From the NCBI GenBank assembly GCA_951799425.1, contig OX637396.1, positions 41,841,901 through 41,905,900 on the forward strand: a DNA stretch of 64,000 nt. Direction: 5' to 3'. The DNA is from Ilex aquifolium (Eukaryota; Streptophyta; Magnoliopsida; Aquifoliales; Aquifoliaceae). Positions 4,354 to 56,500 of the stretch are shown piece after piece (position 1 is the first letter of the stretch; every line of letters begins with the position of its first letter). Made by a program: the position numbers and the translations under genes. The notes below the pieces were generated by a model. The model made no database searches. It was not told the DNA's origin and worked only from the letters and a program-made list of their open reading frames with translations.

Positions 4354-5712
4354 GGGATTGTTTGGTAACTGTTTTTGTTTTGTGTTTTGTGTTTTTGTTT
4401 TCAATTTTTGTCAAAAATGAAAACAAAAATATGTTTGGGTACTGTTTTTGTTTTTGTTTTATATTAATTTTTTGAAAACAAAGACAAAAAAATGGAAACA
4501 AAAAAAAAGATGTTTCAAGAAACACCAAAAACAGAGACAAACGCGCAAAATAGGGTGGAGAATTAATGAGATCCGGACTTCGACTCCTCTTAACAGCAAA
4601 ACAAGCCTTTTTTTTTGTTGAAGTATAAAAACTCTTTCACCCCTCTCTCCTCCCCATTGCTTCTCTCTCTCTGTCTCTCTCCTCCCTCCCTCGTCTCTTT
4701 TTTCTCTGTATCAGACCACCGCCTCCATAGCTCCCTCCTCTCTCCTTTCTCTGTATGAAACCCAGAAGTTGTGAAACCCACCTCAATCGATGCCTCTCTC
4801 TCTCCTCTCTCCCTCTTCTCTGTGAAACCCAGAAGCTGTGCATATATATGCACAGATCGCTGCCTCGAGACGAATCGCCACCTCCATCGCTGCCTCGAGA
4901 CGAATCGCCACCTCCATCGCTGCCTCCAGACGAATCGTTGCCTCCTCTCTCCCTCCTCTCTCCTTCTTCTCTCCTTTCTCCATATTAATGCATATATACG
5001 TAGATCTATTTACTGATTTTTTATGTATAGATCTATACATATATATTTATATATACGTATGATTTTTTATGCATAGATCTGATTTTTTTTTAATGATTTT
5101 TTATGCATAAATTGTACCCATTTGTGTCTTTCCTTATTTTATTAAAATTTATGGTTTCTTCAGTGTATTGATTTTCAAATTCCTCTTTACTTGTTGTTTT
5201 CCTTCCTTCTCTCTGTGCGAGAATTTGTGTCTGTGTGTGCAAGTGTTTGTCTCTCTGTGTTGTGTGGGTGAGTGTGTTTGGGTGAGTATGTATGTTTGTG
5301 TGGGTGAATTTGTCTTTTTGTGTCTGTGTGTGTTGTGTGAGTCTGAGTGTGTCATGCAAAATTCATGTTGGATTCAATTGTTGAAGTACTCAAATCCCAT
5401 TTGTGCAATCCTATGATTCTTGTAGAGCTGTTATGAATTCTTGTGGTGAAACCGTTGCATATGGAGCTGTTATGATTTTTTGTTTTAGATGGATTCGGTT
5501 AAGCGACCTAAGTATTGACTTATTTCACTATAATCTTTGTATTGAAGTGGTTACCAAACATGTTTTTTATTTTTATTCTCATAATTTGAGAGACACAAAT
5601 GACTCACAAACATGTTTTCTGTTTCAGTCTTTACCACAAAACAAAAACAAAAATTGTCTCTGTTTTTCACTTTTTTGAAGACGCGAAAACAAAAACGTTA
5701 CCAAACGACCTC
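4354..5712. mobile_element. PIF/Harbinger-like non-autonomous element (1359 bp)
   Basis: The left end reads GGGATTGTTTGGTAAC and the right end, reverse-complemented, reads GAGGTCGTTTGGTAAC. The inverted repeats continue inward as T/G-rich 'GTTTTTGTTTT' sequence. A 3-bp duplication TGA flanks it (4351-4353 and 5713-5715), as expected for Harbinger-type insertion. The interior has CT-rich tracts and a 30-bp tandem repeat and encodes no transposase. Ends were set by eye; the family assignment is an inference from TIR and TSD size. Confidence 0.7.
4859..4940. repeat. 30-bp tandem repeat, about 2.7 units
   Basis: The unit starting GCTGCCTCGAGACGAATCGC is repeated almost perfectly at 4859-4888 and 4889-4918, followed by a partial unit to about 4940. 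It lies inside the Harbinger-like element. Confidence 0.9.
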
Positions 5713-7510: not shown

Positions 7511-10500
7511 TCACCAAGGTTGCCCTTTCCCTCGAAGCTGCCGAGCCAGCTCCCAGTCCTTTTTCACTGAGCTCCGAGAAAAGCAAATGAAAGGATACAT
7601 CCAGTTTATTGTAAGTGGAGATCCAAAAGTTTGGGATACATCTCAAACAAAAAAAAAAATGGGACCAATCCAATAAAGTTGGGATAGATCCCAAGTTTTT
7701 TTTCTCTATCCTAACTTAATTCAACTGAATCGTAACCTGGTCTGACCTGATTGAATCATAACTATCTATATGCCGAAAAGTTACCGCAGACTGTTCCACA
7801 AGCTTATGGTGCCACTCATTTGCTACATCCATAGCCATATACACCAAATAATTGAACACCCAAGTTTCAAGTGTTAAAGAACCTATGTCATATGAAATTT
7901 TGCTCTTTATGTCGGCAGGGCAGCAAAAACTACAACATGGAGGCAAGACCTGAACCAAGTTCATCAATCGGTAACCCCTGCCCCAAAACCCCAACAAAGA
8001 AAAGGACAGGAAGCATAAAGGTAAATCAAACTTACTAAGTGTAACACGCTTTGCATGAATTGCACATAGCATTGCATCTTCAAAAAAATGAACCAAATAG
8101 TCCTCTGCTGCCTACAAAAAATAACCACCCATAAATATTTGAAAACAGAATTCAAGTAGATGTGTACTTATTTGGAATTCCAAACAATTCTGCTATGAAA
8201 TCTGAACCGGTTTGAGGAAACATGGGCTGCCTATAATTATGAAAACAGTAAAAGGAAGTGTTTCCTTCAAAACTTAAAATGGCACGGAGAAGCAAATAAG
8301 GGTGGGAAATAGTATAATTTGTCTAATATGTGTTATCAGGTCACGTTAGGGGTGCATCTGGATGTTCCTTTATGTATCAATGGGCAATAATGCTTGGTAT
8401 GGCATTTGAAGTAAACGAATCTAACCTACACTGAAGTCATCAAAGATACTAAATCGGGATTCACCAACCAAATTAGTCAGGACCCTGTTGAATCAAAAAA
8501 AAATGTCACCATGCTTTCAAGTGAAATTTAGGGTATCTATATGTGACCACCTAGAAGGAACTCATAACTACTTATGATATGATTATGGTAGAACCAAACA
8601 AATTGAATTACTGTCTTTCTTAACAACGATTCAACTTCATCAGTTGCCAGTTTCAATATGGGGAAGTGTACCGTGCTCAAAAATGCACATGAATGTGAGT
8701 TTTGAAACTTCATTGAAATAGAACAAATCATACTTAGTTTCTACAGAGTGGAAGGTGTAAGCATAATTAATATATTAAAAGGTTGAGAATCAACATGAAA
8801 AATGACGCTATTGCACACCAGTCTACTAGAATATACGCACACATCATCTTGCCTACTTAGATGCATGCATTTATACAGAAAAGCCGACTAATTAAATGGA
8901 GATAAGCCATAATACCTCCGGGAGAGCTGCTAAAGCTTCAGCTGTCCAATGAGTCTTTCCCGGGGCAAAATAGTTGCTAATCTCTCTTACCTGCAAAAAC
9001 ATTACAAGAATGTACACAGAAACTTGTTGAAATCTCCTGATAAAACCAAATGCATACAAGTATATAATTATTAGTTACCACAAGAGAGATGTTTACAAAG
9101 GAATGTGCACAGAATGGTGAACTTCGAAACTTCCATTTCCGCTTCTGTTTGCCTTGGACATGATTATGAGAGTTGTACTTGCTAAAGTTGTGTGTGTGGC
9201 CAACATCATCCTTATTAGACATAGACTTGGCTACATCCTAAATATTGCACTTTCTTCAAGTTCTTTCTGGTTAAAAAGTTTGGCACTACTGTGGGAGGCA
9301 TGGGGTATCCATTCTTTACAATACAAGAATAAAATAAGAAATTTAAAAAGAAAGGAACTTAGTTATATACCCAAAAAATTAGCATTAAGATCTGTTGAGT
9401 TGAGCTGAATTTAATACTTTAAGAGAACATGAAGATCTCTGATGCAAATCCAGTTCTCACAGAAACCAATTCACAGCAATCCAACAGACATGTAGAGGAC
9501 AAATTTGTTATAACTATTCAGAAAGGCCGAAAGTTAATAAGTTTATCAAAGTAGCAAACATATGGGAAATGGTTCATCGGACAGTCATTTAATTTTAATT
9601 CCCCAACTCTGAAATATCGTGTAAAAGTTGAGCCACGTGTTAAATACCAATTGAGCATGCAAGAATTTCCTCCTGGAATTGTGACAATAACTCTTAATAA
9701 ATACAATTGGGAGAGGGACAGAGAGTGTGCATTTTTATTGAAGTGTGCTGAATCATTACAAACAAATATAAGCAGTCTGAAACCTGAGAAAACAAACCTA
9801 CGGTACAAGAATTTTGTAACACGACATCTGACATTTTGACAAGGCAAAATAGTTTATATATAAAGCAATTTAACAGCCTTCAAAACATTCAAGAAGTTTA
9901 AGGTCTCAGGTTGGATGACATTCTACTTGGCTTAAATTTATCGAAATTAAGTCTCCAAGTAGTTAAACACTCATTGCATCATCAATCCATTGGGATGTTT
10001 GAATTTAGTGCACAAGTTTATAGAAACCAATATGCACCCTTCTGTACTTCACTTCTCTGCACAACATCAAAAAGCCCTGGCCCAACTCCATGGAATCAGC
10101 TATGTGATTCCCGACTTCCTATATTCCCTTAACCTTTCCACTTATGATCTTTTAACATACTCTTAACAGTTCTCATATTTTACATTCAGGTCTATCTACA
10201 GACGATCACACAGACAAACATGTATCTGCACACACTTGTGTGTTTGTGAGTGTGCATATTGGTTCATAAACATTTTTGTGGCTTCATTGACTTGGTTATT
10301 ACAATGTTCATTAGATCATTACACCAACAGTCTCAAAACTAATATGCTTTTGTAATTGAATACATATCTGCTCAATTTCAACAATCCCTATCCAAATTTT
10401 TTTGTTATTGGCGAGATAAATTCCTATATTAATCTTACAACTTCAGGATTAGAGAGTGCGCTAATGCAGTGCTGATCTAGTAGAACTATTCAACGAAATT

Positions 10501-10930
10501 CCTAATCAACAAATACAACCACACAAATGCACGAATATGTGCCTATACAATGCATTTATGTTGGGAGAGAGATGAGAAAGAGTGAAATTACAGTTCGAAT
10601 GAAAGGAGCAGCAGGAATGAGAAGTTTCCAGGTCTTATGGAAATGCCGAATCTCACGAAGAGCCACCGTCCCCCGCCTGTGACGGTACTGCTTTCTCCGC
10701 CTCTGCGCCGCTGCTGAACCTGAAAAACACAAATGTTTCAAATCACTCAAGAACGCCTCAGCATCACCAATTCACCACCACACAAAACAAATGAAATAAA
10801 AAAAATAAATGCTTAAACTCACTTTGCGGATCATTGCCTGTACCTCTTCTAGTCGGAATCTGCAATTATTCATCGAAAAATAAATAAATAAATTCGTAGA
10901 AAAATATTCGAGATCTACACACACACAAAC

Positions 10931-10977
<47 letters not shown>

Positions 10978-11141
10978 AGTAGAAGTACCGAGGTCGAAGA
11001 ACTAGATGCAGCAGCTGTGATTTTAGAGAGCGAAAATATTTAGATACTAAGAATTTTAAATATATATATATATTTAAAATTCTGACAGAAGCCTTGGGGG
11101 CGATTACGTTTCTGTTGGGAGAGGTGTTTTGTTCTCGCTAT
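7511..11141 (-). CDS. CENH3: Centromeric histone H3 (CENH3/CENP-A), start codon disrupted
   Basis: CENH3 replaces H3 in centromeric nucleosomes and recruits the kinetochore. Seven exons join in frame: 11087-11141, 10989-11014, 10823-10859, 10592-10719, 8916-8990, 8036-8111, 7511-7566 (453 nt, 150 codons plus TGA). The product has a diverged N-tail (ARTKHLSQQKRNRPQGF), then RRGTVALREIRHFHKT, LLIPAAPFIRTV, a helix-2 block EAAEDYLVHFFEDAML, CAIHAKRVTL, and the C-terminus KKDWELARQLRGKGQPW. Loop-1/helix-2 spacing and the short C-terminus are those of CENH3 and not of canonical H3. Oddities: the codon preceding ARTK is ATA, not ATG; the original ATG is at 11276, beyond an inserted MITE. Helix 2 has LPE where the family normally has LQE. 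The C-terminus has W and Q where F and R are usual. The first exon's donor could instead be GTAATC at 11107, also in frame. It may be a decaying paralog or a gene rescued by splicing. Confidence 0.85.
10931..10978. repeat. (TA)n(GA)n microsatellite
   Basis: A TA run followed directly by a GA run lies in CENH3 intron 2, a few bases from the exon 2 donor. Confidence 0.9.
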
Positions 11142-11268
11142 TAGGGGTGATAAACGAGCTGAATTCGAGTCTAATTTAAGCCTAATTTACATATAAACGA
11201 ACTGGCTCATTTGACTATTTACACATAACCTAAAAAAATGTTCAAACTTGACTTATTTAACGGCCCTA
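11142..11268. mobile_element. hAT MITE inserted at the CENH3 start codon (127 bp)
   Basis: The element starts TAGGGGTGATAAACGAGC and ends CGGCCCTA, giving short TAGGG/CCCTA termini as in Ac-like hAT elements. It is flanked by an 8-bp duplication CTCGCTAT (11134-11141) and CTCGCCAT (11269-11276). Read on the minus strand these are ATAGCGAG and ATGGCGAG. Deleting the MITE and one duplication restores ATG GCG AGA ACA AAA CAC, the MARTKH start of CENH3. The single mismatch between the two copies falls on the third base of the start codon. Confidence 0.9.
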
Positions 11269-11276
11269 CTCGCCAT

Positions 11277-13934: not shown

Positions 13935-14252
13935 CTTGTTTTCATTCCATTACCACACACCAGTATGTATTTTATGACACAAAGCATGAAAAACATGAAA
14001 CTATAATTATTTAATTCATGATATTTTGGATGTGTCTTCCAAGTGTAACTCATATAAGCCCAAAAATACACATGAGAAGAGCATACATATATTGCAATCT
14101 GTCTTTCAAGTGCAAGTTATCTAAGCTAAAAAATTCTTACATAATAACGGCATATAATGCAGAACTCATAACATAGCTTCAGAATTTCCTGCCATGATCG
14201 TTTCCGGTTGTAGAACTATACAAAAAGATTACAATTTTGCAATTCCAACTCT

Positions 14253-17200
14253 CTATGGCTGTGAAGGGGTAGGAGATGTTGGAGGCTTCAAATCTGGATA
14301 CTGCAACCACAAAGGAAAGAGGTAAATAAATACCTATGAGATTATATACAAAAAGTTAATACCCAAGTGCAAAGAGATAAAGTTCAGGGTGATGGTATTG
14401 CCAGTGATAGTTTCTTAAATCTGAACATTTTTTCTTCATTTTTCCCCATAAACTCGGGGGCTTTTCTTGTTTGCTCTAATAATCTTCCATTTGACAACAT
14501 TTAGTCTATTGAATAGATAGCGATGCACCATCAACAAGAAGCAAGAAGATATAAGCCAGTCGTAAGTAGATCTTGAGCTTGTAAACTATGCAAAAAAAAT
14601 TAAAGGAGATATAGAGCAATGACTACGAATTACATTAGGATATGGAGACAGTGATCCTGGAAATCCAGGAATTGATTTTGCTATAACTTCTGTTTTTGGG
14701 ACTGAGTTGATTTCCGGTGCAGGTTCTGCAGCTGTTTCTATGTTTGCTTCAGCTTTCTGTACAGCACTATCAGAGGCAGGAGGGCTTTCCTCCACAGGTG
14801 CAGGAAGAGCTTTGCTAGTTACGGGTGATGGTAGAAGAGCCATTCCAATTTGCTGAGTTTCCCAGGTCAGAAGAGGAAAGAAAAGTTAAATCCACAAATT
14901 GTAAGCAATACATTTAATCTAAAATTGTAAAGTTCAAAGCTTTCGCAAAAGATGCATTTGAAGAAATGGACTTATCAGATAGTAACATTTTGATATGTGA
15001 TCAGCATTCACACAAATGCAAAGTACCTTTATGTCATCTACAAGTTCTTTAGGGGCAACCTTAGTGGTCAAGAATCCATCAACTTCTTGTAGAGTTTGCT
15101 TTCTATCCTGTCAGGGAAAGAGGTGAAAATAAGTGAACATGAAGGTTGCAATTCTAGAAAGTTCAAGAAAAAACCGGAGCCTCAAACTATGGCATTCAAT
15201 GTCGTCTGTATGTAAATTAAGTGAAATTAAGTTGAACCGAACTCACACTGTACTAATGAAGGCAAATGACTTACCCCGGGAGGTTAAGGAAGCTCAGTTT
15301 CACTGCTACTTTCACAACAAATACATCTATTTATCATCAAAAAGTAACTTAGCAGAGTCACATTTGGAATCTAAAATACTGGATCTCAAAAGTCTTGATT
15401 ATGGAAAGTGTAGCTGAATGTGAGCTGAAGGATATGAATTGAATAAAAGGTGGTCGGTCTGATCTAATTTGGTTCCCATTAACATATGGTGCTGGAAGAG
15501 ATAGATCAGGTCAAGACCGAAATGTTCCTCATATTTTAAAACCACAACATTGCGGTATGAGCCCAAGCATTTTAGTACAACCTCAATGTAGTCTCATTGC
15601 TCTGATCTTGAGAATTATAGATAATCAAGTCCTCTTGACAAGGCAGCAACTATTTTTAGCGAAATCGTATATAGTGGGAGGTATAATCCTCTCTGACAAT
15701 GATATTCTACCTTTTCCAAAGCTATATAAAGCAATTTAAAAATAAATATAAGTCAGAGCTGAGGATCATACATAATTTAATCATCCTAATGCTTATACCA
15801 TGCATATCCTTGGTTTTGGGTAGTAGTACTACACTGATCTTGATACTTATTGCATGAGAGTTCATGGGGTGTTAAAGAGGTTTGTCATTTTGACATGCAT
15901 TGGTATCATAATTTCGTCAAAGGGTGATCCACACTAATTGGTTTCAAGGAGACCAACCACGTGCCATCCTTAACAGGCACAAAATGCAATTATTCACATC
16001 ATTTTGGGACAAGAGTACATCATGGTTTTGCAAATTTATAAACATACCTCAGCAAACAGGAGTTTTGTGCTGATAAATTGAACAAGCGCTGCTGAACCTA
16101 AGAGCTGCAGGATTGTTTCTACCTGACAAGATGCAGCAAAACCATCAATGTTAAAGTTCTCACAGAACCATGCTCACCAATTTAAGCAATGAACTCAGCA
16201 ACCAAACCTCTGAAAATGCTAATAAACCTAATCCAGTGGCTGCGGCAATACCAAGAGTAACAGATACAGCATCAGACTCCTCCTGCGAGGTAAAATTGTA
16301 TCACAAACATTAAACTAATGCCATTAAAATATTCCAGAAAATCATAACTTCCCAAAAACCGCATAACAATGATTAGCCGCATTGCCACTTAACAATTTGA
16401 ACACATGATAGCGCTTAACTTGTTAATATGATAAAACAATTTGCAGTAATTTAGAGAAAGTTGAGAAGCATACAGGAAGGGCACCACCAATTACATCAGT
16501 CAAATTGCTGAAATCAAGACTGAATGTTTTGCTTGGTAGTATCCATGGAAGACCGCTATTCTGCTTGGATTAGGATATATCAATAAGTTTCGGGTACACT
16601 TAATGTATGATTTAAAGGTAAATTGGACCTGGAAGCTCAAAAAGTGAAGAGATAAACTAGGAATTATGAAATTGGCAACAACCATCCATCCTCGGCTTCC
16701 TTCTGCGCCATCTTTTATTCCATAAGCAGCTTTGAAGCCATTTGCTGTGACCAACTCCGCTACCAGTTCAGAGTTCCCATCAAATCTGGCTTCATCAAAA
16801 TTCAACAGCACGAGATTGATTTTATAAGTAAATCTTTCGGGCAGGGGGGGGGGGGGGGGGAACTGTGCAAAATCACCATAGAAAGCTATGGTTTTAGAGA
16901 AACAAGTTAAGATCAACAGAGACAAATAGTTAAACGACTATGAGTTTCAAAGTTCAAACCTTCATGATTGTATCACAAAAGGAAGCTCAAGCCTTCAGGA
17001 AGCCTACAAAGCATCGCATGATGCCATAATTCCTCTAAATCCTACTTTTTAGCTGAATATTCCAACCATCGATTATAATCCCATAATTTAACTGAAGACA
17101 ATAATTTCAGATAGGCTAAAATGGCTGAGCTATATTCATCAAACAAACTGTGCTAATTCTTATTAATTGGACAATGTTCTTGGACCAAGGAATGGATAAC

Positions 17201-17969
17201 CAACAATTTCCTCTGATTAATTGGCTGAGCTATATTCAAAGATGAGTTGAACAAATCATAAAGACTGAATAAAAGATGAATTGGGTTTTTAAATAGTGAA
17301 CAAATCGTACAAATTCTGTTCAAAATCTTACTTGTCTAGAATGAACAATGTGGTACTTTCAGGTTCCTTAAACTTCAAAGACAGCTTCTTCAAGAACCCT
17401 AATTTATCTTCACCTTTGTACAAGACTGACACTGGCTTCTTCTTCAACCCTCGGATATCCGGACTACCCACTTGCTTCAATTCCACTGTTGCTCTTATAT
17501 CAAGCAACTGAGCATTGGCATCGTCACCCAATTTAGCATAAGCACTCTTTGCAGACTCAACACCCCACGGCTTAGGTTTACTGAGCAACTGAGATAAGAT
17601 TAGCGGCACCGCCAAAACGGCGGCGCCACCGATTATAACTGCCGGATTCTCCGTTACAAAATTGATTGCACTATCAAGAAACCCACTGACGTCAAAGTCA
17701 GTGAAGCCCTCAGAAGTGAAAGTGCCTACTGATTGCTGTAATGCTTCTTCATATGTAAGTGCTCTAGCAAATTCAGAACTAAACACAGAGGAAAGAAGCA
17801 CTAGACCACCATAGGTCCTTGATATATTTGATGGGTTGGTGCTAAAATTAGCAGAAGTTGGGAAATTATAAAGAGAAGTTGTGGGGATTGGGAGAATTTT
17901 TCTGGGTTTTGTTCTCCGGTCTGAAAGAACAGAGATGGGTGTCGAGCCTACTGCATTGAGGGCCTCCAT
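14253..17969 (-). CDS. TROL: Thylakoid rhodanese-like protein TROL (STR4)
   Basis: TROL anchors ferredoxin-NADP+ reductase (FNR) at the thylakoid or inner envelope membrane. Eight exons join in frame: 17332-17969, 16683-16785, 16474-16560, 16208-16282, 16048-16122, 15027-15107, 14634-14852, 14253-14300 (1326 nt, 441 aa; Arabidopsis TROL is of similar length). The N-terminus is a Ser/Thr-rich chloroplast transit region. Residues 72-80 are LTYEEALQQ, and a membrane segment spans about 109-129 ([18 protein letters not shown]). A rhodanese-like domain runs from about 135 to 250. The active-site position reads LDKFDGNSE, with Asp where active rhodaneses have Cys, as known for TROL. A second hydrophobic stretch follows ([18 protein letters not shown]). 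The Pro-rich tail ends [21 protein letters not shown] (21 aa, slightly longer than the shared motif), the FNR-docking (ITEP) motif. Start chosen at MEAL, matching the family. I saw no break. Confidence 0.95.
16842..16861. repeat. Homopolymer G run
   Basis: A run of about 18 G interrupts TROL intron 1. It may be a length-variable or assembly-sensitive site. Confidence 0.9.
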
Positions 17970-20032
17970 AGCATAATTTCTTGATCACCACAGGCTTTTT
18001 TCTGTGCTCTCAAAAGATTGATAGAAAGACCTCAATCACCATAAAGAATGGAATGTCTTTTTGGCAGATTGTGTTCTCTATAATGGCCTGAGCTTTGGAG
18101 TTCAATGGTTGTACAACCCTGCCCTTCACTGATTTGTCTTGAGTGGGAGGAGAGGAGAGATGAGCTTTCGACCAATTGTTACGTAACACGTGGGACTAAG
18201 AATAGTGATCATGTTGGCTTTAGAGAGGCTGGTTACTTTTTTTTTTCCTGTTGGGATTTTGAGATTGTGTGGCTGAGAAATGTCTAAAAGAAGTTTTTGG
18301 AAACTTTGATGTTAACTCCCTGTACTAGTCTACCTGCTACAGTACACTTGTACTGCCATGTATACCCTTCCAAGGTGGAGCTTTTCAATCACAGATTGGA
18401 AAGCGTATAATCACGTATAAATCACACACGATTAAACCGCCCAAACGCATTTTAGTGAACTCAAACTTGAAACTTGTTAATAATTTCTGAAATCTGTCAT
18501 CGGTTTATCTGTTACATGGCGTATAGCGGAAAATTATGGTGTAGTATAGCTTCTTATTTTGGCACTCGAATCGCAAATGCTCACTCGAACCATGAGCCCG
18601 TCGACTATTCTTGTTATGGTAGATTAGGGGAGTGAATTCTTGACAATGCTACTCATAACAAGCATGGCATGCTTCTGGAATAAAAAATTTCATGGCTGGT
18701 GGTACTGATGCGTGATAAGGTCACTACTAACGAATGGTGAGTGCGTGAAGAATGCTATGGATTCGAGCTCGAGTATTAGACAGAGCTAGAGAAAGAGCCT
18801 ATTCCAGAGCCGGGAGAACAGTCCTTTGTTATATGTCTCTTGTTCCCGAAATGTATTGCTTTATCTACCATTAATCATAAGGAGAAGGTAGATTTGCAAT
18901 ATGGTAACAAGAAAACCTCAAATTTACTTGACGGATGGAATTGTCTTTGTGTTTTGTATCTTGGTAGTCAATCTCATATGTATCGTACGGGTAGCAAGAG
19001 ACCTTGGGCAATATGGAAGTTACATATTCAGAATCCACATAAAAAATAGCTGCTCTTTCGAAAAATTGTGAACCCACAGGAATGGGTGCAGCCGTTGGAT
19101 GGATACAGGTAATTAGCTGAGTCTGTATATCAGTGTGAAGGTCCATGGGACGTATCATCTATTCCATACATCAAAGGAAACAAAATGTAAGCGCCGGGTA
19201 GAACATGGTGTGATATGCTAATGTCAAGATAGGCACAGTAAATCTAGATTAAGAGTTGGCATGCGCACACATACACACAAGGGTAGAGAGAAAAAAGAGG
19301 TTCTATTTTTGAGACAATAGACCTTATAGGGCAAATTATATTTACCCCCTTAAACTATTACTTTTGTTTCGCTTTACACTCTCAACTATAAAATGTCTCA
19401 TAGTACATCTCAAAATATTAATTTTATTTCATACCACTCCAATAGATAACGATTGTCAATTTTATGATTGTAAATGCACATGTGAGTGATTTATATTGTC
19501 AATAAACAATTGCCTATTGCACTATGTACATATCAAAAATCAAGAAAAATATTCATCCATGACTTTGTCATTCCTAAGCTCTAAATTTTCTTCCTCTGGA
19601 CAACATTTTTCTTCCCAGCAATTATTTAGTTGTAAAAGAGGTAAAATAAATTGGTTCTAGACACTTGGTGAAAAGTTTTTTGTGGTTTCTCTCCCTCCTT
19701 TGAAAGATTTTTAAGTTTGTCGTTATCTATTTAAGTGATATAAAACAAAATTAATACTTTAGGGTGCAATATGAGAAATTTTATTGTTGAAGGTACAAAA
19801 TGAAACAAAGATAATAATTCAGGGGGATAAAGTGTAATTTACTCAACATGATAAGAACTCTTGCAACAGACAGAATTAACTATTCAGCCACGACATCTAC
19901 GAGAATGAAGGGAAAAAGTCAAGAACAACAAATGAAGTGTACAATGATACCAGAAATAAACTGAATAGCCCATTGACAAAAATACGTTACATTGTCTAAA
20001 ACAAATATAAAGAGGAATGAGTAAAATTTTTA
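17970..20032. other. Intergenic between TROL promoter and CHID1-like 3' end
   Basis: No gene supported. Bases 17970-18300 hold the TROL 5' leader and proximal promoter. A MITE occupies 19329-19844. The frames at 18840-19160 on both strands resemble nothing known. Confidence 0.6.
19329..19844. mobile_element. Inverted-repeat transposon (about 516 bp)
   Basis: The left end GGGCAAATTATATTTACCCC matches the inverted right end GAGTAAATTACACTTTATCC. Pairing continues inward for over 100 bases (TTGTTTC..., AAAATGTCTCATA..., AGATAACGA...). No coding content; target duplication not evident. A related half-element lies at about 24435-24560. Confidence 0.7.
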
Positions 20033-50500: not shown

Positions 50501-53500
50501 GTTTTTCTTTGCTCATATAATTACAGGTGAAGATAATAAAGTGTCTTGTGGAAAATATTGTGGTAGACATATCTTTTAACCAGCTTGGTGGGTTATGCAC
50601 CCTTTGCTTTCTTGAGGAGGTTAGTATTTAGTTCTGAACACCTATGAACTTTGATCATACTTGTGCTGTTGTTACTTAACAAGAATATGACTTGTGCAGG
50701 TTGATAATTTGATAAACCAGAATCACTTGTTCAAGCGTAGCATTATATTGATCAAGGCATGGTGTTATTATGAGAGTCGTATACTGGGTGCTCACCATGG
50801 ACTGATATCAACTTATGCCCTGGAGACCTTGGTTCTTTACATATTTCATGTTTTTAACAATTCCTTTGCTGGACCGCTAGAGGTTACTAATTTCTGCAGT
50901 TCTTACTTCCTATATTGTTTTGTTATCTTGGGCTTCCATCTGAGGATTTTCAGCACTTGCAGGTCCTTTACCGTTTTTTGGAGTTCTTTAGTAACTTTGA
51001 CTGGGACAACTTTTGTGTTAGCCTATGGGGTCCTGTACCCATTAGTTCACTTCCAGATGTAATTGGTAATAATCACTAGAGATTTTTCATTTGATGCATT
51101 CTAGCACTATTTCTAGAGGAAACTGGCCAAGTCTTTAGTTCTAATGTATCTATTTGGAACATTTTGCAGCAGAACCTCCCCGAAAGGACTGTGGAGAGTT
51201 GCTGCTTAGCAAGTTGTTTCTTAATGCTTGTAGCTCTGTATATGCTGTTTACCCTGTAGGCCAGGAGAATCATGGACAACCTTTTGTTTCCAAGCATTTT
51301 AATGTCATCGATCCTTTACGTGTAAATAACAACCTTGGTCGTAGTGTCAGTAAAGGTAATTAATTTTCTTTCATTGTATATATTCTAGACTACATATCTT
51401 GTTCTGAGTTGAATGACACGTCGTTTTTTCACTATCCTTCATGAGCTGTTTGAACTTCTCATGTCAACCTGAGTTTGTCATGTGTCTGTTATGACAAGAA
51501 CTTGACTTTGTCCTTTTTAATGTTGTGATTGATGTAATTGATCTAACGCCTTTCCTATTTTTCCCTTGGCCTCCAATGTGGTTGCATTTTTATCACTTGG
51601 TGAATTCATGGGTCTTTGGCCCATGTTTGACTGAAGTGGGGGCCTTACCTTTAAGGTGTGTGTTTTGAGCCTTAGGTTTTATGGTTTCTAGACAATTTCT
51701 TCTGGACAGTTGGTGTGTACTGCTCTATTTACTGCTTACAACAATGACCAATACGGGAAAAATGACCTGTTGGGTGTGGCATGGACACATACACCACATG
51801 GATTGCTGGTTGCTGCATGTAAAATTTTTTTAACTTCAATTTGCTTATGTATTTTCCTTGTGTTATCATTGTCTAACTCGTTTTTGTCAAAAAAAATTTC
51901 CCCAAATTCGGTATGAAGCTAGGGGAAGAAGGGAGAACTGTTAAATTTAGGAGGGTGTTTTAAACACTTTGTTTAAAAATGCCATCTTGTCACATGCTCA
52001 ACATGGTCGTAGTTGAGCAACTGAGGAGCAGAAATGTGTGTATATTTGTGATAATTAGTTTTATTACGAGGAATCATGAATAGGGCTTTGAACATCCAAG
52101 GGGATCTAAAGGTCCAGGATTTTGTTTATTTCTCTATTTTCTCTCCACATTGGTTAAGCCTCATGTACAGGGTTTAAGGGGGTTTTGCTTGTTCATCAAG
52201 GAAAAAAGTTAGATCAGGACAGTCTTTGGGTCAATTGAATACTAGTGTCAAATCCATGCGATGCACAAGAAATTAGAAAATAAAGTAAAAAAGAGTTGGA
52301 AGTTAAAAGTTGTGGGAAGTTGATGAGAGCAGTGATATGAATGTAAGACCATGATTAGATGGAACATATTTTTGTCGAAAAGATAGAATTTAGAAAAATG
52401 GGGAGGGAAGGCTTCTTAAGCTCTCTTCCCTTTAAGATGGCCTACACCCCTAATTCGAAGGCATCCAAATATGTGTGCGCCATTATTCTTAGAGTGATCA
52501 GAAGGAACATTTTTTGTTTGGCAGAAGTCACATTGTTCTGTCTTGAGTCTTGACCTTTTAGTGTTGCTGTAAGCTCAAATTATTTTGTCAACTTTTGGTG
52601 TTTTAGCTTCTTATGCAACTGTTTAAATTATTGAACAGTGTCCCAGTGGTTTAGAAATGTATTTTGGTAGGAATTTCTTTGCATATTTTGTTTTTGAATT
52701 AATTTGGAATGTTTAATCTATCTTGTTATTAGGTAATTTTTTTAGGGTACGCAGTGCATTTGCATTTGGGGCTAAAAGACTGGCAAGATTACTTGACTGT
52801 CCCTCAGAAGACCTAGATTTTGAAGTAAATCAGTTCTTCATGAATACATGGGATAGGCATGGCAGTGGCCTGCGTCCTGATGCCCCGAGGACTGATCTGA
52901 GGCACTTGAGATCATCAACTCCTGATCAACTTCTTGTGTCTGAGAATCCTAAGAACAATTTAGGTGGCAAAAAAATGAATGACAATGCCTATGGTCATGA
53001 GAATGAGATTGGGGGTACTCGGCCACATGGTGTTTCCTCCCAAAACAGCAGTTATCCATCAGAAAGTATTTCTAGAACCAATGATATTTCTGCACCTTCT
53101 CGCACTCAAAGCCAGAAGAATTATAGCAACATGAACAACTCAAGGATGTCTGATCAGATTGTACGTGGAGTTAATTCTAATCAGGTTGCACATTCTGATA
53201 TAGGTCGATTAAATTTGAAACCCGATCCCGTGGTGAATGACATCCAGGGAAGGTTTTTTTTTGCCAGAACACGTTCTAGTCCTGAGCTAACCGACACTTA
53301 TGGTGATGCGTCTTTTCATGGAATGCATAACAGACCACCACAAAGTGGGAAAAGCCAGGCTACTTCTGCAAGACTCGATGGTGGCAGGAGGAAGAACCTC
53401 CGGTCTGAAATTTCAGCAAGCCATTGTGGTCAATCTTGTAATGATGATCCTTCATCTGTCAGGCAAGTTCCATCTTGTCAAAGTGTTGATGCTGATGCTG

Positions 53501-56500
53501 ACATGAACGGTAGTTCAAACAGTTATCTCCGTGATTCAGGCCTTGGTGCCATGAGTGAAGAGATGTCATCCACCTTTGGGACACAGGGAATGCATCAGGA
53601 AGATCAAGATCTTGTGAACATGATGGCATCTTCTGCCATGCATAGTTTCAATGGCCAGGTTCATGTGCCGCTCAATTTAACTTCAGCTCACCTGCCTTTT
53701 CCGATCTCTCCATCCATTCTAGCTTCTATGGGGTATGCCCAGGGAAATATGGCTGGGATGCTTCCAACAAATTTTCCATTGATTGATCCTTCATTTTCAC
53801 ATATTCAATTTCCTCATGATTTGGTTTCTATGCCATTAGCTCATTATTTCCCGGGCATTGAATTGGCCTCAAATTCAGAAGATTCTATAGAGCCATGTAC
53901 GGAGGATTTTGGTTCTGCACTAGTGAACTCAGGGGAGGTTGATGATATCTGGACGGAGCAGGATTTGGATTCTACTGGAGGCTGTGACCCTGATAATGGG
54001 AATTGTGAAATGCTTCAGACAAATGATAAGCCACCCTCCACGGAAGCAGGCTTTGACTTTGCTCCCCCTTCTCGGATGAGTGGATCTGGCAGTTCTACGA
54101 GAGTTCAACAAAAGTATACTAAAGAACAACAAGCATCAACACTGGAAGATCGTCTAGATAATTGCCTGTATCAAGATAAAAGAGGATATGAGGTATACTC
54201 TGATGAAAGAACGACGAGTTCAAGGTTCTCTTCTGCTGCTCACAGTGGTTCTCTAAGAAGTAAAACCTCTTCTGAGAGTTCCTGGGATCGATCATCTACG
54301 AAGGTCTCAAAGTCAACAAGGGAAAAAAGGGGAAAGAAAATGGTTCCTTCAGAGCCCTCTGCTGAATATGGGAAAGGGAAAGTTACGTCGGAACTTGTTT
54401 CTGCGCAATCTAAGGAGGATGATCAGGAGTGGAATCCACTGTCAAACATGGGAACTGAAATGGCAGAAAGAAACTCAGGACATCTGTCTGCTGCGTCTTT
54501 ACACCCAATGCATCACATACCTGGATATGAATCCCAGACAAGCAGAACAGATTCAATGGCACCCATTGCTCCCATGCTCTTAGGACCTGGTTCTAGGCAA
54601 AGAATGATGGATAATTCTGGGCTGGTTGCCTTTTATCCTACTGGGCCACCGGTTCCATTCCTTACAATGCTCCCGGTGTATAATATGCCACCTGAAACTG
54701 GAACTTCTGATGCATCGACAAGCAATTTTGGTGGGGAGGAGGGTGTTGATAATGGGGATTCTTTTCAGAACTTCGCCGATGGACTTGACCAGTCTGAGGA
54801 ATTAAATACTTCTAATTCTGTGAGAGGGGCTGCTTCTATTGAGACATCAGATGAGCATAAGTCTGACATACTTAACAGTGACTTTGCTAGCCATTGGCAA
54901 AATTTGCAATATGGACGGTTTTGCCAAAATCCACGGCCCCATGGGCCTCAGGTGTATCCTTCACCTGTCATGGTACCACCCACGTATCTGCAGGGCCGTT
55001 TCCCATGGGATGGTCCCGGAAGACCTGTTTCGGCCAACATGAATCTCTTCACTCAGCTTATGAGTTATGGCCCTCGTCTTGTTCCTGTGGCTCCTTTACA
55101 GTCTGTTTCTCACAGACCTCCGAACGTTTATCAACGCTATGATGATATGCCAAGATACCGTACTGGGACTGGGACTTACCTGCCAAATCCTGTAAGATGG
55201 TTTTTTTTTTCTTTCCATCAATCCACTTTTTTGTCTTCATCCATCTACCTTTTTTTTTTCATTTATATGTCATGATATATCTATTTCTACTCACATCATT
55301 ATCAATGTTGTTGCATGGTAATTGGTAAGACATCATGCATTTTTTGGTGCATACACTCGCCTTCGAATATTGGCCAGTGTGCCCAGTGATCCTAACGGGA
55401 GAGCAGTTTTTTTTCCTTCTGGAAACATAGTGCCCTCTGATCTAGTTTATCTATCGACAGCATTATGTTTGACGTTTAAAAAACAGTCCACCAGTGGTAC
55501 TGAAGGATTACCTTCAGAGTGTGGTTTTAGTCTTAATTTACGATGCAAAGATCAATTTCATGTATAGAGTGGTTCACCTTTGCAGTCTGTGCCATTCTTC
55601 CTTTTAGTTTAGCGGTTATGTCAAATTTTGGTTTCTGTAATTTGGAAAAATGGCTGGAGTTGTAGAAATGGGCCTGCCTGCATCTGCAATTTTTCATGAT
55701 GACCCATAATCAATGATGCATGCCAGTACTGAGGCGAAATGGTATCCCATGGCTAAGATATAGACAAAATGCATGGAAAATTTTATAAACTTTTATCTTC
55801 CGCTGTTTCAGTCCATACTGAGGCTGGCCTACTATCACAGCAAAGTGTACCTTGTTGACTTACTGATATTAAAGTGGAAGCAGAGAACGGTGTAGTTTAC
55901 TTCTTTATGAAATTTCTGAATTCACTTTTGATTGTTGCCTTGGCATCATGTGTACTGATGACTTATTTATGTTGTCACTGTTGACGTGGTGTGGTCTGGG
56001 CTGGGCTGATTTCCTTTCCTGATGCCTCTGCTTTTAATGGTTAAAATGTTTGTGTTTTCAAGGAATTTGTGAGTAATATCAATAAAGAACAACATATCTA
56101 AAAAACATCAATAAAGAAACAGTTGGAAAAGCACAAAAATAAAATGGAAGACCATTCTATGAGTTTCACGTGAGGCAATTGCCCCTCTTTTTATAAATTA
56201 TCAGGTAAACAGGGTCTTAAAATACCTGAAGGGAAAGCCCTCTCTTTTTTTAAAGTAATGTTGTGTTTAGCGATTATCCAGAGGGCTTTAGAAAATGTTT
56301 TCCATCATTATCTACTGCAGAGGCCAGTTGTGTTATCTTCTGTACCCCATTGAACCGTCTTTACTTAAGTAGATGTTTGACCTTTGATTTTGGTTATTTT
56401 CAGAGGGTTTCTGCTAGGGACCGGCATTCTTCAGGTACCAGAAGGGGGAATTACAATTACGATAGAAGTGACAACCATAATGACAGAGATGCAAACTGGA

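Follow-up and report, generated by a model that had tools for sequence, protein, structure and literature searches.

A second CENH3 alongside a working one is the feature that cowpea CENH3.2 and the duplicated CENH3 of soybean share with the holly locus considered here. In the study that describes them (PMC7738545), the cowpea copies are presented as functional variants with mainly N-terminal differences, and cowpea CENH3.2 is judged to be on its way to becoming a pseudogene, a state that the soybean duplicate has already reached. The holly copy differs from these genes in having a MITE at its start codon and altered sites in its histone fold. As for the element, its closest described relatives are hAT MITEs and Ds-like non-autonomous elements, with which it shares TAGGG-type ends and 8-bp target-site duplications (TSDs); a paper on Ac/Ds (PMC3260210) gives their termini as C/TAGGGATGAAA and their TSD as 8 bp. 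However, the holly elements measure 127-132 bp, carry imperfect TIRs and form a family of their own. A further comparison is offered by introners, some of which, according to one account (PMC9860276), have splice sites to which both the TSD and the element contribute, and add codons on splicing. No published description of the holly locus was found in the literature searched, which is not proof of absence.

The window, that is, the whole stretch of 64,000 nucleotides of Ilex aquifolium that was analysed, corresponds to C6:41841901-41905900 in an assembly of 800,232,872 bp and 103 contigs, the whole of which was searched. Its minus strand carries a gene already taken for CENH3 in the original prediction, an identity borne out by its histone fold and by plant CENH3s as its best matches, the best among the matches listed being I. 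paraguariensis P0001 (81%). The Pfam Histone score was 102.9 bits for the window protein and 120.9 for P0001. The frame is open through seven exons to the stop and all six introns are GT-AG; past the start of the gene, no stops, frameshifts or lost splice sites were found, and the start alone is lost (Table 1).

Table 1. Features of the window around the CENH3 gene, with positions counted from the first letter of the window.
Feature	Positions	Strand	Basis
Distal TSD ATGGCGAG, with the original start codon at 11276-11274	11269..11276	-	sequence; same as the intact start of the second CENH3
hAT-type MITE, 127 bp, TAGGG...CCCTA	11142..11268	-	sequence; family search and consensus of other copies
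Proximal TSD ATAGCGAG, with ATA in place of ATG	11134..11141	-	sequence
Frame of the distal ATG, with a stop reached inside the MITE (M-A-S-R-A-V-K-stop)	11253..11276	-	sequence
CENH3 exon 1, portion beyond the insertion (RTKHLSQQKRNRPQGF)	11087..11137	-	open frame; exon end as in the second copy
CENH3 exon 2	10989..11014	-	open frame; second copy
CENH3 exon 3	10823..10859	-	open frame; second copy
CENH3 exon 4, histone fold begins; P56R, Q68H	10592..10719	-	open frame; second copy
CENH3 exon 5; I95K, R97H, V104A, Q107P	8916..8990	-	open frame; second copy
CENH3 exon 6; L117F	8036..8111	-	open frame; second copy
CENH3 exon 7 with stop; R143Q, G145R	7511..7566	-	open frame; second copy
TROL (rhodanese-like domain protein 4), approximate limits	14256..17984	-	open frames; 3' end matched beside the C5 CENH3
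Poly(A)-polymerase-like gene, large open frame	52729..55233	+	used for assignment of genus and block
Candidate 132-nt intron, CGA/GTAGGG...CCTAATAG/CGA; in-frame MATRTKHL	11138..11269	-	prediction
Candidate 111-nt intron to an internal CAG; in-frame MATRLSPLIARTKHL; better acceptor score	11159..11269	-	prediction
Candidate 99-nt intron to TTAG; in-frame MANSNSARLSPLIARTKHL; weak acceptor (-2.89)	11171..11269	-	prediction

On the minus strand, ATGGCGAG is followed by the element, then by ATAGCGAG and AACAAAACACC..., so that the insertion of a MITE on the CENH3 start codon is confirmed. The 127-bp TAGGG...CCCTA element between 8-bp copies had been predicted with coordinates and letters that match exactly. 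The mismatch announced at the ATG is likewise there: the two copies are identical at 7 of 8 positions, and the single difference is the G of ATG, changed to A at 11139. The distal ATG does run into a stop within the MITE, its codons being ATG GCG AGT AGG GCC GTT AAA TAA, with TAA after seven codons. The empty site is present in a second holly CENH3, as TCATCAAAGCCC-ATGGCGAGAACCAAACACC at C5:820450. The TIRs of the window copy are imperfect, and 9 of 500 shuffles scored equally well; a chance match as the source of the element is ruled out, since related copies form a family and the empty site exists.

The whole-assembly DNA search with the element returned 595 first-look candidates, of which 40 were scored: the window copy itself at 100%, and 39 others at 88-90% identity, 38 of them spanning query positions 1-127 and one 1-125. 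The TSDs were read in 29 other copies, and the perfect 8-bp duplications found in 20 of these support the assignment to the hAT type made in the original prediction; 6 had one mismatch, 1 had two and 2 were out of register. Since one or two mismatches thus occur in 7 of 29 copies, the one-base mismatch at the window copy is ordinary in kind, and what matters about it is its place on the ATG. The family is typical of hAT MITEs in being short (about 132 bp), in having many copies and in its 8-bp TSD. The consensus of the 29 other copies, with which 8 of them are identical, is 132 bp long and has the ends TAGGGCTG and TAGGGGTG; it has the C/TAGGG start, and its TIRs match at 10 of the first 12 bases. 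From this consensus the window copy departs by a 5-bp deletion and 10 substitutions. Because 9 of the 10 substitutions also occur in at least one of the 29 other copies, the window copy may belong to an older subgroup. Dating the insertion from the divergence of the MITE (10 substitutions in 127) was discarded, as only one substitution is private, and nothing finer than 1-8% since the insertion can be read from it. Some further features of the family were also observed. One copy (L010) sits in a 763-codon open frame, read across its empty site. The consensus has an internal CAG, to which splicing is predicted to add 24 nt and keep the frame, given a TSD ending in G and the same orientation. 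Its 17-nt tail has no internal stop in any phase, though in one phase a stop arises from its final two bases when A or G is the first base of the TSD.

The search for a second CENH3 that had been proposed yielded an intact copy in the same assembly, on a different chromosome-scale contig, at C5:820450-824606. Its ATG is intact, it has no insert and its start reads ATGGCGAGAACCAAACACC; it has seven exons as in the window gene, GT-AG introns and 150 codons, and 4 of the 150 aligned residues set its protein apart from P0001. Next to it there is also a match to window 14090-14324, where TROL has its 3' end (76% over 238 columns). As there is a second intact CENH3 in the genome, the window copy is a duplicate. 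The original prediction had left two alternatives, a dying paralog or a single essential copy with an unusual start. The first is favoured by the intact C5 copy and by the fold changes at conserved sites considered below, while the second is unsupported, a single essential CENH3 being ruled out by the C5 gene and its intact ATG. An upstream first exon restoring an AUG had also been envisaged. For the exon that the I. paraguariensis CENH3 model has upstream (SKSKRKKRMKGEDNFIF), a counterpart precedes the C5 gene by about 0.9 kb (L046 990-1040, C5:819489-819539) and could be either a 5' exon or an artefact of annotation; among the matches listed, none lay on the minus strand upstream of the window gene.

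The search of the assembly with P0001 gave 22 rows, of which 4 belong to the C5 gene, 3 to the window gene and 1 to a fragment on C4; the remaining 14 were taken for putative H3 genes or fragments, and further CENH3 copies may exist in the holly assembly. The C4 fragment is a third CENH3 remnant, at about 4621-5094 of the stretch C4:36572500-36582000 (L047), in which only exon 6 and its flanks were seen. It is closest to the window gene: its match to window 7931-8399 reaches 86.4% over 478 columns, that to the C5 copy 80% over 197.

The origin of the two copies was approached through their neighbours. The TROL and polymerase genes of the window show 95% and 94% identity, respectively, to I. 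paraguariensis genes that both lie on a contig of 563355 bases, values that also speak for the genus Ilex. The other TROL of that species (73%) shares a contig of 83533 bases with CENH3 P0001, and its other polymerase gene (73%) is found on a third contig, of 144212 bases. This grouping by contig, together with protein similarity, places P0001 and the C5 gene in one lineage and the window gene in the other. In trees, the Ilex duplicates cluster for the polymerase (100/99), TROL (85/95) and CENH3 (90/82), with only the polymerase reaching the program's star for full support. An Ilex-specific duplication is reported in two studies (PMC11709435; PMC9441949), and the clustering in the trees agrees with it. 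The window copy and the C5 copy probably derive from this whole-genome event. However, Ks between them is 0.175 (107 sites), which falls short of the 0.37 published as the median and leaves room for a younger duplication. One row of the 120 listed (from 563 CENH3 matches) came from I. paraguariensis, and none was a CENH3 on its contig of 563355 bases (P0121, P0241), where the orthologous gene may be broken, missing or unannotated.

The constraint acting on the window gene was evaluated in an alignment of 103 of the 120 listed homologs, 17 having been dropped by eye before counting under no written rule (mostly isoforms, near-duplicates, and long or partial sequences). The conserved fold residues are not all kept: of the 49 sites in the fold with conservation of at least 95%, the window protein is altered at 7, against a maximum of 6 among the 103 relatives (P0086) and none in P0001. 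At a 90% threshold P0086 draws level with the window protein at 7, and it exceeds that protein in residues that the others do not show (11 versus 9). Of the fold changes assigned to the window lineage, 7 of 9 fall on sites conserved at 95% or more, whereas the relatives' departures from consensus do so in 79 of 1613 cases (binomial 2e-8, a value for relatives that are not independent and for two counts defined differently). The share in the window lineage is at or above the neutral one (49/102). Among the changes, Q107P falls in the stretch aligned with helix 2 of histone H3, and R97H occupies the position that corresponds to H3 Arg83.

Ka/Ks between the window and C5 copies was 0.69 for the whole gene and 0.53 for the fold. 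When the fold differences, which include several codons that differ at two or three bases, were divided between the branches by a crude clock, the ratios came to 0.54 for the window branch and 0.47 for the C5 branch, so Ka/Ks by itself does not set the window copy apart. Intron divergence between the copies was left unused, as it came from a forced global alignment of unlike lengths. With assumed indel rates, the chance that frame and splice sites stay intact under strict neutrality is 0.012-0.039 when conditioned on 9 ± 1 fold changes, and that of an intact frame is 0.17, 0.03 and 0.0009 at 2, 4 and 8% divergence. A gene that is relaxed and not long dead fits these results best; the changes at conserved fold sites could also reflect a new function.

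We are fairly confident that, of the two holly CENH3 copies, the one in the window is redundant and decaying. Both belong to duplicated stretches in which TROL is followed by CENH3, an arrangement that most likely goes back to the Ilex-specific whole-genome duplication. The C5 copy, which kept its start codon, would be able to supply the essential function, and the window copy on C6 would have been free to lose constraint. A hAT-type MITE entered the gene at its first codons, with duplication of ATGGCGAG; the ATG of the inner duplicate was lost by the G-to-A change, and the outer ATG leads to the stop in the MITE. Redundancy presumably preceded the damage, and the window copy would yield no functional CENH3.

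Another explanation, absent from the original prediction and in our judgement unlikely, is that the MITE is spliced as an intron, in which case the distal ATG would start MATRTKHL... or MATRLSPLIARTKHL... and the change in the inner ATG would have been harmless or helpful. Ds1, from the same superfamily, reportedly acts as an intron in maize Adh1-Fm335 (a finding attributed to Dennis in 1988), and the holly case would resemble both it and introners in splice sites that are part TSD and part element and in added codons; however, holly splicing is predicted only, and one copy is no introner family. The GT of the candidate donor, GA/GTAGGG, consists of the last base of the distal TSD and the first base of the MITE. 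The G-to-A change at 11139 both removes the ATG and makes an AG (11139-11138) that is a candidate acceptor in the right phase. Splicing there would join ATGGCGA to CGAGAACAAAACAC, giving M-A-T-R-T-K-H with one added Thr, and the 132-nt and 111-nt candidate introns are both in frame with the rest of the gene, whose otherwise intact state has the low chance under neutrality given above. By scores that use plant frequencies, the junction donor (-0.17) falls among the six donors of the gene itself (-4.26 to 2.20), and among its six acceptors (-0.79 to 6.15) falls the CAG acceptor (1.04), but the TAG acceptor (-2.08) is under all six of the gene's own, two further GTs in the element outscore the junction donor (0.10 and 0.45), and another AG scores 2.85.

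Moreover, among 2000 shuffled elements in which the ATG was kept, the junction donor allowed an in-frame rescue in 48% (in 100%, by construction, with the ATA form), and an in-frame rescue of any kind was on offer in 84%; in-frame rescue was accordingly rejected as strong evidence of splicing. TSDs end in G in 11 of the 29 other copies, so a junction donor is common, and the coincidence of this donor with the G-to-A acceptor is suggestive only. The erosion of the fold also counts against a working product, and no introners are reported from land plants in the account cited above (PMC9860276). The fuller version of this explanation is distinctly unlikely: that the MITE functions as a newly formed intron in the opening codons of the window's CENH3, with a donor from TSD and element, an acceptor from the substitution that destroyed the ATG, and a distal ATG leading to MATRTKH or to an eight-residue extension. 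The family would then be a candidate for an introner-like element of a land plant, and the gene a diverged, still translated CENH3 variant.

Far less probable is a non-AUG start, at the ATA or at an upstream near-cognate codon within the MITE. AUA and AUU are weak near-cognate start codons. The frame upstream of the ATA is open to 11186, but this open stretch contains no ATG, the first downstream in-frame Met comes in exon 6, past much of the fold, and the second, normal CENH3 copy removes the need for such a start. Least credible of all is an error in the assembly, or a somatic insertion confined to the plant that was sequenced, since the MITE is a distinct copy with its own TSD, 10 substitutions and a 5-bp deletion relative to the consensus, on a contig of at least 41.9 Mb.

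Were the splicing explanation true, the locus would represent the birth of an intron from a MITE in a plant, and the many family copies (595 candidates) would make a genome-wide test possible. As an apparently decaying counterpart of the intact C5 gene, the window locus records a real event of an ordinary kind, the arrival of a MITE in a duplicate that is redundant and relaxed. The apparent paradox of an essential gene without a start codon is removed by the second intact copy, and holly offers a readable case of a duplicated CENH3 losing constraint, in which the insertion and the lost ATG are visible base by base.
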